This document shows, one piece after another, positions 10,583-14,898 of a stretch of DNA of 37,067 bases. The notes beneath the pieces were generated by a model, which was given only the letters and a program-made list of their open reading frames with translations, was not told the origin of the DNA and did not search any database. The translations under genes were made by a program, and so were the position numbers. Where the stretch lies: positions 1 to 37,067 of the forward strand of contig JAFWNS010000027.1 of the NCBI GenBank assembly GCA_017510225.1, given 5' to 3'. The stretch's first letter is position 1, and each line of letters opens with the position of its first letter. This DNA is from Bacilli bacterium. GTDB lineage: Bacteria > Bacillota_I > Bacilli_A > RF39 > UBA660.

Positions 10583-11641
10583 ATGTCAAATAATAAAATA
10601 AATTATAGGTTGTTAAATGTAACACTTTTAATGGTACTTTTATTCATAGGTTTTAGTAATATTAATTTATGGATAAGAATAGTAGCTAAAATTGTATCTT
10701 TACTATTACCATTTATTATTGGGTTTGTTTTAGCATATGCAATACATCCAGTAGTACAATTCTTAGAAAAGAAAGGTGTTAGAAGATGGATTGCTTTAGT
10801 TGCAGTAATTCTATTCTTGGTTTTAGCTGTAGTAGGATTACTTATTATTACATTACCAATGTTATATGATCAAATAGGTTCTTTTGCAAAATATATAATA
10901 GAATTAATAGAAGATATTGGTACTAAATTCAATCTTAATTTAGCTGGGTTTGAAATAAAAATATCTGATTATTTTAATGATATTATTAAGTATGTAGGTA
11001 AACTTACATCATCAGGAGCAGGTAGTATAATTTCTGGTCTTATATCTTTTGCAGGAAGTTTTATATTAGGACTAGTTGGATTTATTTATTTCTTAGTTGA
11101 TATGGAAAAAATAAAAACCGGATTTAAACATATATTATTATCTATCAGTAAAAAAACATTTAATTATTTTAAGACATTAGATATAGAATTAGGAAATTAC
11201 ATAAAAGGATTATGTATGTTTATGGTAATTCAATTTTTTGAATATAGTTTCCTATTCTTTATAGTAGGTCATCCTAACTGGTTAATATTAGGACTACTTG
11301 CTTGTGTTACTACAGTTATTCCATATTTTGGAGGATTAATTACTAATTTAATTGCTATACTTACTGCATGTTTAATATCTACTAAACTAGTAATACTTAC
11401 AATCATTATTTGTTTGATATTCCCACAATTAGATGGATATATAATATCTCCAAAAATATATGGTAAAACTAATAATGTTAATCCATTAATTACCATTATG
11501 GTAGTTAGTATAGGTGGGTCATTAATGGGAGTAATTGGTATAATTGCAGCTTTACCAATATATCTATTAATAAGATCTACATATCTATTCTTTAAAAAAG
11601 ATATAGAAAAGAAAGTAAAAGAAGTTAAAAAAAGTATGTAA
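10583..11641 (+). CDS. AI-2E/PerM family membrane protein
   Basis: A 352-residue polytopic membrane protein of the PerM/YdiK/YtvI group (PF01594). About eight membrane segments are visible: two or three at the N-terminus with LPFIIGFVLAYAIHPVVQFLEKKG, which is typical of the family, a soluble middle domain (about residues 105-145), then a bundle with LGLLACVTTVIPYFGG and the conserved PQLDGYIISPKIYGKTNNVNP. The C-terminus is basic and cytoplasmic. Family members have been linked to transport of autoinducer-2, Na+/H+ exchange or other cargo, so the substrate cannot be assigned. It starts 4 nt after dtd, the last gene of the comN-secDF-rel-dtd unit, and its stop lies in a terminator stem. Confidence 0.88.
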   Translation: MSNNKINYRLLNVTLLMVLLFIGFSNINLWIRIVAKIVSLLLPFIIGFVLAYAIHPVVQFLEKKGVRRWIALVAVILFLVLAVVGLLIITLPMLYDQIGSFAKYIIELIEDIGTKFNLNLAGFEIKISDYFNDIIKYVGKLTSSGAGSIISGLISFAGSFILGLVGFIYFLVDMEKIKTGFKHILLSISKKTFNYFKTLDIELGNYIKGLCMFMVIQFFEYSFLFFIVGHPNWLILGLLACVTTVIPYFGGLITNLIAILTACLISTKLVILTIIICLIFPQLDGYIISPKIYGKTNNVNPLITIMVVSIGGSLMGVIGIIAALPIYLLIRSTYLFFKKDIEKKVKEVKKSM

Positions 11642-11664: not shown

Positions 11665-11693
11665 TTGCAAAAACATCTAAAAAATAGTATTAT
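11665..11693 (+). promoter_or_regulatory. Promoter for the T-box leader and glyS
   Basis: TTGCAA (11665-11670), 17-nt spacer, TATTAT (11688-11693). The predicted transcription start near 11700 gives a leader of about 145 nt before glyS. Confidence 0.65.
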
Positions 11694-11699
11694 AAGAAT

Positions 11700-11826
11700 A
11701 TAATAATTATATAAATGTGATGACCAGTGTGGAAAGCTGAGAGCAATATTTTAAAGTGATTCTTCTAGAATAAGTAAGGTGGAACCGCGGGAATAACTCG
11801 TCCTTACGTTTATCTAGGAGTTTTTT
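11700..11826 (+). promoter_or_regulatory. T-box riboswitch of glyS with very short Stem I
   Basis: The T-box core GGTGGAACCGCGGG (11778-11791) is unmistakable. The antiterminator pairs GTAAGG (11774-11779) with CCTTAC (11802-11807) around it. The competing terminator pairs AACTC (11795-11799) with GAGTT (11818-11822) and runs into T6. Stem III is ATTCT-TCT-AGAAT (11759-11771). Stem I is tiny: kink-turn-like TGATGA (11718-11723) and GAGAG (11739-11743) enclose CAG/CTG and a 9-nt loop, TGTGGAAAG. The loop contains GGA (11731-11733), a glycine codon followed by a purine as in specifier loops. Uncharged tRNA-Gly should stabilise the antiterminator and switch on glyS. The assignment of GGA as specifier is inference. 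Confidence 0.92.
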
Positions 11827-11843
11827 ATTTAAAGGAGGATAAA

Positions 11844-13208
11844 ATGGATAAAATAGTAAATTACTCAAAACAATATGGATTTATATTCCAAGGATCAGAA
11901 ATATATGGAGGACTTGCTAATAGTTGGGATTATGGACCAATAGGAAGAGAATTAAAAGAGAATATAAAGAAAGCTTGGTGGAAGAGATTTATCCAAGAAG
12001 AAAAGAATAGTTATGGCCTAGATGCTGCCATTATAATGAATCCAAATGTATGGGTAGCAAGTGGTCATGTAACTAGTTTTTCTGATCCATTAATAGATTG
12101 TAAAGCTTGTAAGATGAGACACAGAGCAGATAAGCTTATAGAAGATTTCACTAATGGTAAAGAAACTGGAGATGGATGGAGTAACGAAAAATTAGAAAAG
12201 TTTATAAAAGATAATAATATTACTTGTCCTAATTGTGGTAAGAGTGACTTTACAGATATTAGACAATTTAATTTATTATTTGAAACAAGTATGGGTGTAA
12301 CAGAAGATTCATCATCTAAAGTATATTTAAGAGGAGAAACTGCCCAAGGTATATTTACAAACTTTAATAATGTACAAAGAAGTATGAGAGCTAAAGTACC
12401 ATTTGGTATAGGTCAAATAGGTAAAGCTTTTAGAAATGAAATAACTCCAGGTAATTTCATCTTTAGAACACGTGAATTTGAACAAATGGAATATGAATTT
12501 TTCTGCAAGCCAGATACAGATTTAGAATGGCACAAATATTGGAAAGAAAAATGTTTGACATTCTTAGAAGAATTAGGATTAAATAAAGAAAACTTAAAAT
12601 ATAGAGATCATGATAAAGATGAATTATCTTTCTATAGTAAAGCAACTACAGATATAGAATATAAATACCCAATGGGCTGGGGAGAACTATGGGGTATTGC
12701 AGATAGAACAGATTATGATTTATCTGTACATGAAAAACATTCTAAAAAAGAATTAAAATATTTAGACCCAGAAACTAATGAAAAATATACACCATATGTA
12801 ATAGAACCAAGTGTAGGAGTAGATAGATTGTTCTTAGCAATCCTATGTGATGCATATAAAACTGAAGAATTAGATAATGGAGAAACAAGAGAAGTATTAA
12901 ACATATTACCATATCTTGCTCCATATAAAGCATCTATTTTACCACTTGCTAAAAAATATCATAGTAAAAAAGCAAATGAAGTATATGACTTATTATCTAA
13001 AGAATTTATGTGTAGTTATGATGAAACAGGATCTATTGGTAAAAGATATCGAAGAAGTGATGCTATTGGAACACCATTTGCTATCACTATAGATGATGAT
13101 ACTATTAATAATAATACTGTTACTATAAGAAATAGAGATACTATGGAACAAACAACATTAAACTTAGATGAAGTAGTAGATTATATAAAAGAAAAAATAT
13201 CATTTTAA
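11844..13208 (+). CDS. glyS: Glycyl-tRNA synthetase (dimeric alpha2 type)
   Basis: This 454-residue class II synthetase charges tRNA-Gly with glycine. It is the single-chain alpha2 form, not the alpha/beta form of B. subtilis. The N-terminus YGFIFQGSEIYGGLANSWDY is typical. An inserted zinc site has CKAC and CPNC pairs (near residues 92-132). Motif 2 is FRNEITPGNFIFRTREFEQM and motif 3 is GVDRLFLAIL. The C-terminal anticodon-binding domain includes YDETGSIGKRYRRSDAIGTP. AAAGGAGGA before ATG 11844 gives a strong start. Expression is controlled by the T-box just upstream, whose terminator ends about 17 nt before the gene. Confidence 0.97.
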   Translation: MDKIVNYSKQYGFIFQGSEIYGGLANSWDYGPIGRELKENIKKAWWKRFIQEEKNSYGLDAAIIMNPNVWVASGHVTSFSDPLIDCKACKMRHRADKLIEDFTNGKETGDGWSNEKLEKFIKDNNITCPNCGKSDFTDIRQFNLLFETSMGVTEDSSSKVYLRGETAQGIFTNFNNVQRSMRAKVPFGIGQIGKAFRNEITPGNFIFRTREFEQMEYEFFCKPDTDLEWHKYWKEKCLTFLEELGLNKENLKYRDHDKDELSFYSKATTDIEYKYPMGWGELWGIADRTDYDLSVHEKHSKKELKYLDPETNEKYTPYVIEPSVGVDRLFLAILCDAYKTEELDNGETREVLNILPYLAPYKASILPLAKKYHSKKANEVYDLLSKEFMCSYDETGSIGKRYRRSDAIGTPFAITIDDDTINNNTVTIRNRDTMEQTTLNLDEVVDYIKEKISF

Positions 13209-14713: not shown

Positions 14714-14719
14714 ATAGGT

Positions 14720-14898
14720 GTCAGAGAGATGCGTGATTGTTCTCATATAAAACCCACTATAGTCACGATACGGGAGTCTTGATCAGTTATCCGTGTTGAA
14801 AACCTACCTCGAGTAGGGATCCTAAAGATGACGTACGGACACCCACCTGTAAAAATGCAGGTTTTATCGTTGAACACAGCGCTCTATCTGACTTTTTT
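14720..14898 (+). ncRNA. Structured non-coding RNA, candidate 6S RNA
   Basis: About 175 nt, clearly richer in G+C than its surroundings, with no open frame. The ends pair: GTCAGA (14720-14725) with TCTGAC (14887-14892), continuing through AGA/TCT and GCG/CGC, then a T6 run as terminator. Inside are TCACGAT (14763-14769) with ATCGTTGA (14866-14873), hairpin CCTAC/GTAGG (14803-14817), hairpin ACCTG/CAGGT (14845-14862), and TCCGT (14790-14794) with ACGGA (14835-14839). It has its own promoter, and the next gene has another, so it is not a simple leader. Length, closed ends and a location near tcdA (in B. subtilis I recall 6S-1 lying near aspS-yrvM) suggest 6S RNA. The central bubble is not clear-cut, so the family call is tentative. 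Confidence 0.6.

Follow-up and report, generated by a model that had tools for sequence, protein, structure and literature searches.

At least four classes of T-box have been described, and the features credited with strengthening tRNA binding in them are the IDTM and the Stem II S-turn, present singly or together (PMC10482949). Class II is defined by a long Stem I that bears the IDTM and carries the specifier in an internal loop (PMC10482949). An ultrashort Stem I with an apical specifier has been reported mostly in translational T-boxes, and the IDTM is regarded as essential for transcriptional T-boxes, its disruption having abolished readthrough in one of them (PMC7583486). According to the same publication, a truncated Stem I hardly bound tRNA without Stem II, and Stem III was termed indispensable; the shortening of Stem III in glyQS had only a minor effect, which is milder than that statement (PMC6197855). 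The classical expression platform has a terminator whose 5' arm consists of the 3' strands of helices A1 and A2, and a "C rule" for the specifier has been ascribed to the Stem II S-turn (PMC7583486). Sequences with a truncated Stem I have been mentioned without details (PMC7778990), and TBDB likewise mentions such sequences. No description of the ultrashort glycine form presented below was found in the literature searched, which consisted mostly of titles and the beginnings of abstracts, and older descriptions are not excluded.

The window, i.e., the whole stretch of DNA analyzed (37,067 nucleotides), derives from a genome assembly of 850 kb in 50 contigs with an estimated completeness of 64%. 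On its + strand, positions 11711-11826 were recognized by their T-box anatomy and by comparison with relatives as the glycine T-box leader of glyS (11844-13208), which encodes a class II glycyl-tRNA synthetase (GlyRS) of 454 amino acids (Pfam PF00587 and PF03129). The leader is likely to be a glycine T-box in which Stem I is ultrashort and Stem II absent, and through which the transcription of glyS is controlled. Its anatomy, glycine specificity, covariation and terminator built from the Stem III strand are shown by the sequences, and its response to tRNA is inferred without any experiment. The leader possesses the features that define the T-box superfamily, namely a glycine specifier with a cognate tRNA-Gly and a UGGN bulge between A1 and A2. 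In a search with RF00230, as proposed in the original prediction, nine T-box matches were detected in the source genome, the weakest of which was the glyS leader (11668-11808; 39.9 bits, E 1.6e-7 in 461 nt); this score falls far short of the required gathering score of 93 bits. An ORF upstream of the leader (10583-11641), which we take to be an AI-2E-type permease-like protein on the basis of its sequence, without a database search, lies on the same strand as the leader and glyS, and a 6S RNA (RF00013, 55 bits) is located 3' of glyS, at 14716-14897 of the + strand.

The comparison with related leaders, also called for in the original prediction, included 110 glyS loci (some of them mutual copies), 30 from 193 genomes of the family and 80 from a scan of named genomes. 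The core pattern was detected 5' of glyS in 81 of these loci, representing 73 distinct leaders, all of which share the ultrashort form. Seven additional leaders were recognized by a model (L018, L020, L035, L038, L054, L064 and L087, the last being the named copy of L038). No T-box was found at 20 of the 110 loci, all of which were searched with the model and, with the exception of L081, also with Rfam, and two others (L033, 2891-2997 of the - strand, and L095, 1357-1449) carry degenerate leaders, in which remnants of a short Stem I or a terminator are visible without a usable UGGN bulge. Since 22 of the 110 loci thus lack a T-box or retain only a degenerate one, this form of control is dispensable. 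The relatives that bear names, such as Candidatus Ventrenecus avicola, belong to the Bacilli, were sampled from gut and rumen and are uncultured, and we take them to represent the GTDB order RF39. At four loci (L010, L017, L054 and L243), a gene with a PGGxGT-like motif is located between the glycine T-box and glyS; in the L243 copy its product matched PF03641 (Lysine_decarbox) and SLOG cluster4.

Stem I (11711-11749) comprises ∼39 nt in the window and 37-42 nt in all 73 leaders, among which its two helices covary. It is closed by an outermost lower helix (11711-11713 with 11747-11749), and the lower helix continues with the strand UGU (11716-11718), paired with GCA at 11743-11745, the first pair of which is AU in 42 leaders, UA in 22, GC in five and CG in one. 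A kink-turn-like element follows, GAUGA at 11719-11723, with its G-A partner at 11741-11742. The corresponding arrangement is GA...GAG in 53 leaders; in 16 others (L015, L025, L041, L076 and L098 among them) the 3' side is CAG, such that the bend is possibly formed differently, and four carry other letters. The upper helix of 4 bp (CAGU, 11725-11728, with GCUG, 11736-11739) shows changes on both sides in every pair, and the terminal loop that it closes, GUGGAAA (11729-11735), contains 7 nt. The loop closing pair 27-37 was present in 40 of the 73 leaders, while the loops were wider in 33. The specifier GGA (11731-11733) is complementary to the anticodon of tRNA-Gly(UCC). In each of the 73 distinct leaders the specifier is located in the terminal loop and is a glycine codon, GGA in 59, GGC in 13 and GGG in one. 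These letters were partly selected for, in that the specifier was located by the pattern TGG[ACG]A and the bulge by N = A or G. However, no leader failed either filter, and in lists compiled without the filter only UGGA, or in one case UGGG, occurred directly 5' of glyS.

Downstream of Stem I, a connector of 9 nt ends in the RRRxG purine motif AAGUG (11754-11758), the full form of which was found in 58 of the 73 leaders and was missing in 15. The connector between Stem I and Stem III measures 9-15 nt in the entire set, which leaves no possibility of a Stem II. The Stem III hairpin AUUCU-UCU-AGAAU (11759-11771; covariation helix 3, 92.6% of cells paired) is followed by AA, and the 5' strand of helix A1, GUAAGG (11774-11779), pairs with 11802-11807 (helix 4, 99.3% of cells paired), all six of its pairs having changed on both sides. 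The T-box bulge UGGAACC (11780-11786) contains the UGGA that is complementary to the UCCA at the tRNA 3' end and is retained in 72 of 73 leaders, and helix A2 (11787-11801; helix 5, 97.5% of cells paired) has a terminal G-U pair. One locus for tRNA-Gly(UCC) and two for tRNA-Gly(GCC) are present in the source genome, and each of the encoded tRNAs ends in UCCA. The discriminator U of both types matches the UGGA of the bulge, and the GGA specifier is an exact match to the UCC anticodon. As judged by eye, the loop sequence UGGAA is complementary to UUCCA in the anticodon loop of tRNA-Gly(UCC), and a longer contact is therefore possible. UGGAA occurs both in the specifier loop (11730-11734) and in the bulge (11780-11784), and UCCA is likewise present twice in tRNA-Gly(UCC), in the anticodon loop and at the 3' end; in principle, either site could thus take the other end of the tRNA.

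The original prediction of a T-box core, antiterminator, terminator and Stem III held, with each element at the coordinates given in this report. Its Stem I of about 45 nt was partly correct, as the element is indeed short but is closed at ∼39 nt by the lower helix, and the postulated 3-bp stem and 9-nt loop are replaced by the CAGU/GCUG helix of 4 bp and the 7-nt loop GUGGAAA. The kink-turn-like flanks were confirmed as GAUGA/GAG, as were the absence of the distal portion of Stem I that would stack on the tRNA elbow, there being no room for an IDTM, and the glycine specificity with a specifier in the terminal loop. The statement that ultrashort Stem I elements are known mainly from translational ileS T-boxes agrees with the published account (PMC7583486). 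Three features had gone unrecognized in the original prediction: the lower helix, the unusual nature of the terminator, and the fact that some relatives have lost Stem III.

In terms of covariation, 93.5% of the cells were paired when the ON structure was imposed on the 73-row alignment, and 20 of its 26 pairs have changed on both sides. Cells with changes on both sides numbered 222, versus 60.5 in shuffled alignments, and none of 500 shuffles reached any of the measures; sliding of the partner strands lowered the pairing to 41-50%. The folding energy of the leader was ordinary for its composition (z -0.81), and the case consequently rests on comparison and not on stability.

A -10 box, TATAAT, was assigned to 11699-11704 (+ strand) from the clustering of its position relative to the specifier. 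Among the 71 leaders with sufficient upstream sequence, to which the count was restricted, the -10 box of the best -35/-10 pair was situated 31-33 nt 5' of the specifier in 52. The joint -35/-10 score was no better than that of shuffled sequence (71 versus 68.3 of 71), and the fixed position is thus the only evidence. From this conserved position, and from sequence alone, transcription is inferred to start at about 11711, at the base of Stem I; with the -10 box at a fixed distance, a longer Stem I could not be accommodated. Two observations would have refuted the original prediction, a start further upstream with formation of a normal long Stem I and free substitution of GGA by non-glycine codons in relatives, and neither was made: the -10 box is in place, and the only specifiers seen were the three glycine codons.

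The terminator is composed of a 5' arm, CUUCUAGA (11762-11769), which overlaps Stem III, and a 3' arm, UCUAGGAG (11813-11820), followed by the U-tract UUUUUU (11821-11826). The minimum-energy fold of every one of the 73 leaders joins the 3' arm to the Stem III side, and none uses the classical partner, i.e., the 3' strands of A1 and A2. A control set of 33 T-boxes that have a long Stem I, collected from the source genome and the family, comprised six with a terminator involving the Stem III strand, 23 with a classical one and four mixed cases. The two arms have co-evolved: own arms pair with a mean of -12.3 kcal/mol, compared to -7.8 (sd 0.24) with permuted 3' arms, a result that none of 2000 permutations matched, and this also holds for the 42 leaders that lack the common TCTAGA. 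When the Stem III strand was placed in the terminator, as in the OFF structure, 84.8% of the cells of the 73-row alignment were paired; the two terminator segments of this structure were weaker (75.9% and 60.5%), which is probably explained by poor alignment of the 3' end. Two T-boxes of other genes were also inspected. In the source genome, the terminator of L002 (C22:10508-10693), before a pheS-like ORF, is likewise formed from the Stem III strand, and in L006, before a hisS-like ORF, the T-box core itself apparently serves as a terminator arm.

Because the Stem III strand provides the terminator with its 5' arm, A1 and A2 lie within the terminator hairpin, at its tip, and readthrough would require that the segment connecting Stem I to A1 be kept from zipping. 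Both A1 and A2 are paired in the predicted ON and OFF states, and the predicted OFF state is the more stable by a median of 10.8 kcal/mol (-20.0 versus -11.2 in the window). The Shine-Dalgarno sequence of glyS, AAAGGAGG (11831-11838, + strand), is located 3' of the U-tract, with a mean unpaired probability of 0.77; the median was 0.75, and values below 0.5 were obtained in 17 of the 68 leaders in which such a sequence was found. The transcriptional action postulated in the original prediction is supported by the U-tract and the mostly unpaired Shine-Dalgarno sequence and is considered likely, as an inference from sequence alone.

A subgroup of leaders lacks the Stem III hairpin. By pattern search, these were detected in 14 of 372 family genomes, distributed among six genera, and at the named loci L054 and L064. 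They retain the short Stem I and the glycine codon, and their connector still pairs with the 3' arm of the terminator. For the 16 leaders without Stem III, none of 2000 permutations was as good in arm complementarity, which is evidence for the terminator role of the connector strand that does not depend on Stem III. The Stem III-less state required nine changes on a quick GlyRS tree, of which at least seven were forced, and its patchy distribution may reflect repeated loss or leader transfer.

A model of the ultrashort T-box matched 301 of 386 family genomes, in 126 of 150 genera, at E<=1e-9, a few of the weakest matches (e.g., those in G179 and G199, read as L220 and L222) being ordinary T-boxes of other genes. 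When 395 genomes were drawn from the class, all 38 matches of at least 70 bits belonged to the family of the source genome; the best match outside the family (L203, 64.5 bits) is an ordinary T-box, and matches below 65 bits reflected mostly the common T-box core, with no ultrashort Stem I in the 18 inspected. Likewise, a sample of 392 genomes from the phylum yielded 13 matches above 70 bits, none of them outside this family. Comparison of sequences thus shows the glyS leader to be a real, widespread and strongly reduced glycine T-box, the dependence of which on tRNA is inferred. Five genomes (G011, G109, G121, G183 and G204) each contained two strong matches to the ultrashort model, and in the cases inspected (L224, L225 and L227) GlyRS follows.

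Long forms of Stem I were observed in the glyS leaders of two other families (L204, L205 and L212; L218) and in one member of the family itself (L210, genome G036), and these matched the Rfam model from end to end with 65.8-105.2 bits. The presence of the long form before glyS in other families and in this member suggests that the short form is derived, with the regulation of glyS having been kept. A single origin of the short form was not shown on the quick GlyRS tree (120 rows, many weak forks), in which the long-form L210 is placed among short-form rows with a support of 82.

In the proposed mechanism, the terminal specifier loop would be bound by the anticodon of uncharged tRNA-Gly, and the T-box bulge by the UCCA end of this tRNA, which would favor a compact discriminator composed of Stem III, the purine string and A1/A2. 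The tRNA that bridges the loop and the bulge, together with Stem III, would hold the connecting strand apart from the 3' arm, so that the two could not zip together and readthrough into glyS would be possible; the bridge would act in this manner because the strand between Stem I and A1 is itself the 5' arm of the terminator. The 3' end of charged tRNA could not be seated, whereupon the arm would zip and RNA polymerase would terminate. A1 and A2 may remain paired in both states, and the choice would be between Stem III (or a free connector) and the terminator. Since the predicted OFF state is far more stable than the ON state, a kinetic, co-transcriptional decision is inferred to be likely, in which tRNA would have to bind before the last ∼20 nt are made. 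Several objections remain: the median OFF-ON gap is large for a single tRNA to overcome, and the published requirements for the IDTM, Stem II and Stem III (PMC7583486) lead one to expect weak tRNA binding in this leader. The ordinary folding energy, the CAG variants of the kink-turn, the leaders without a full RRRxG and the family loci without an intact T-box also weigh against the interpretation.

Several other explanations were considered. The locus could be an ordinary glycine T-box with a long Stem I located further 5', as suggested by the RF00230 alignment, which stretches Stem I over AU-rich sequence from 11668. However, the -10 box with its conserved spacing falls inside that stretch, the short stem covaries, and the true long forms elsewhere score 65.8-105.2 bits and align end to end; this possibility is all but ruled out. 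A translational T-box of the actinobacterial ileS type, in which the ribosome site is masked, would accord with the literature, in which the ultrashort Stem I with an apical specifier is mainly translational (PMC7583486). It is rendered very improbable by the hairpin that ends in a U-tract and by the Shine-Dalgarno sequence 3' of it, which is predicted to be largely unpaired in the window and in most relatives.

The pairing of A1 and A2 in both predicted states would also be compatible with an inverted logic, in which tRNA stabilizes A1 within the terminator hairpin and promotes termination. Such a device would shut off GlyRS when the glycine tRNA is uncharged, and no T-box is known to us that acts in this way; moreover, the conserved RRRxG/AA motif fits the usual ON core, and we regard this reading as highly unlikely. 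Also highly unlikely is a decayed T-box, the hairpin of which terminates constitutively without regard to tRNA. In its favor, the elbow contact and Stem II are missing, and family loci without a T-box, or with a degenerate-looking one, do occur. Against it, the specifier remains a glycine codon, the UGGA bulge and all of the helices covary, and the matches extend through most of the genomes and genera of the family. The preferred interpretation is therefore still a transcriptional glycine T-box that promotes readthrough upon binding of uncharged tRNA.

The leader seems to respond to uncharged tRNA-Gly with far fewer parts than the T-boxes described, and it thus provides a natural test of which parts a T-box needs. 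A widespread family without the IDTM and Stem II, including a subgroup without Stem III, implies that a smaller RNA may suffice or that another contact replaces these elements. With GGA as its dominant specifier, the family does not follow the "C rule", and loss of the rule fits the absence of Stem II. A switch of ∼115 nt would also be convenient for structural work and for the engineering of tRNA sensors. In a bolder reading, which we hold to be as likely wrong as right, these leaders constitute a fifth class of minimal, transcriptional T-boxes that dispense with the IDTM, with Stem II and, in certain lineages, with Stem III as well. The antiterminator of this class would be built into the terminator hairpin, and the tRNA would serve as a strut that bridges the specifier loop and the bulge against zipping.

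With neither an IDTM nor a Stem II, the leader does not meet the full definition of any of the four published classes, as its sequence demonstrates. The features of class I are absent, Stem I (37-42 nt) being too short for the long form with the IDTM and the connector (9-15 nt) lacking Stem II. With class II, represented by glyQS of B. subtilis, it shares glycine specificity, transcriptional action, the absence of Stem II, a single-stranded linker, Stem III with RRRxG/AA, and A1/A2 with the UGGA bulge. It differs from glyQS in that the distal part of Stem I with the IDTM is missing, the specifier is in a terminal loop and is mostly GGA rather than GGC, and the terminator uses the Stem III strand. 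The short Stem I without the IDTM, the specifier in the apical loop and the kink-turn are shared with class III (ileS of Nocardia farcinica). In contrast to class III, which needs Stem II, the leader lacks this element, is glycine-specific and transcriptional, and has an apical loop of 7 nt in the window and 7-9 nt in most relatives, versus 5-6 nt. The T-boxes of the source genome and family with a long Stem I differ in that stem and, in 23 of 33, in their classical terminator, while they share the discriminator core and, in six of the 33, including that of pheS, the terminator formed from the Stem III strand.
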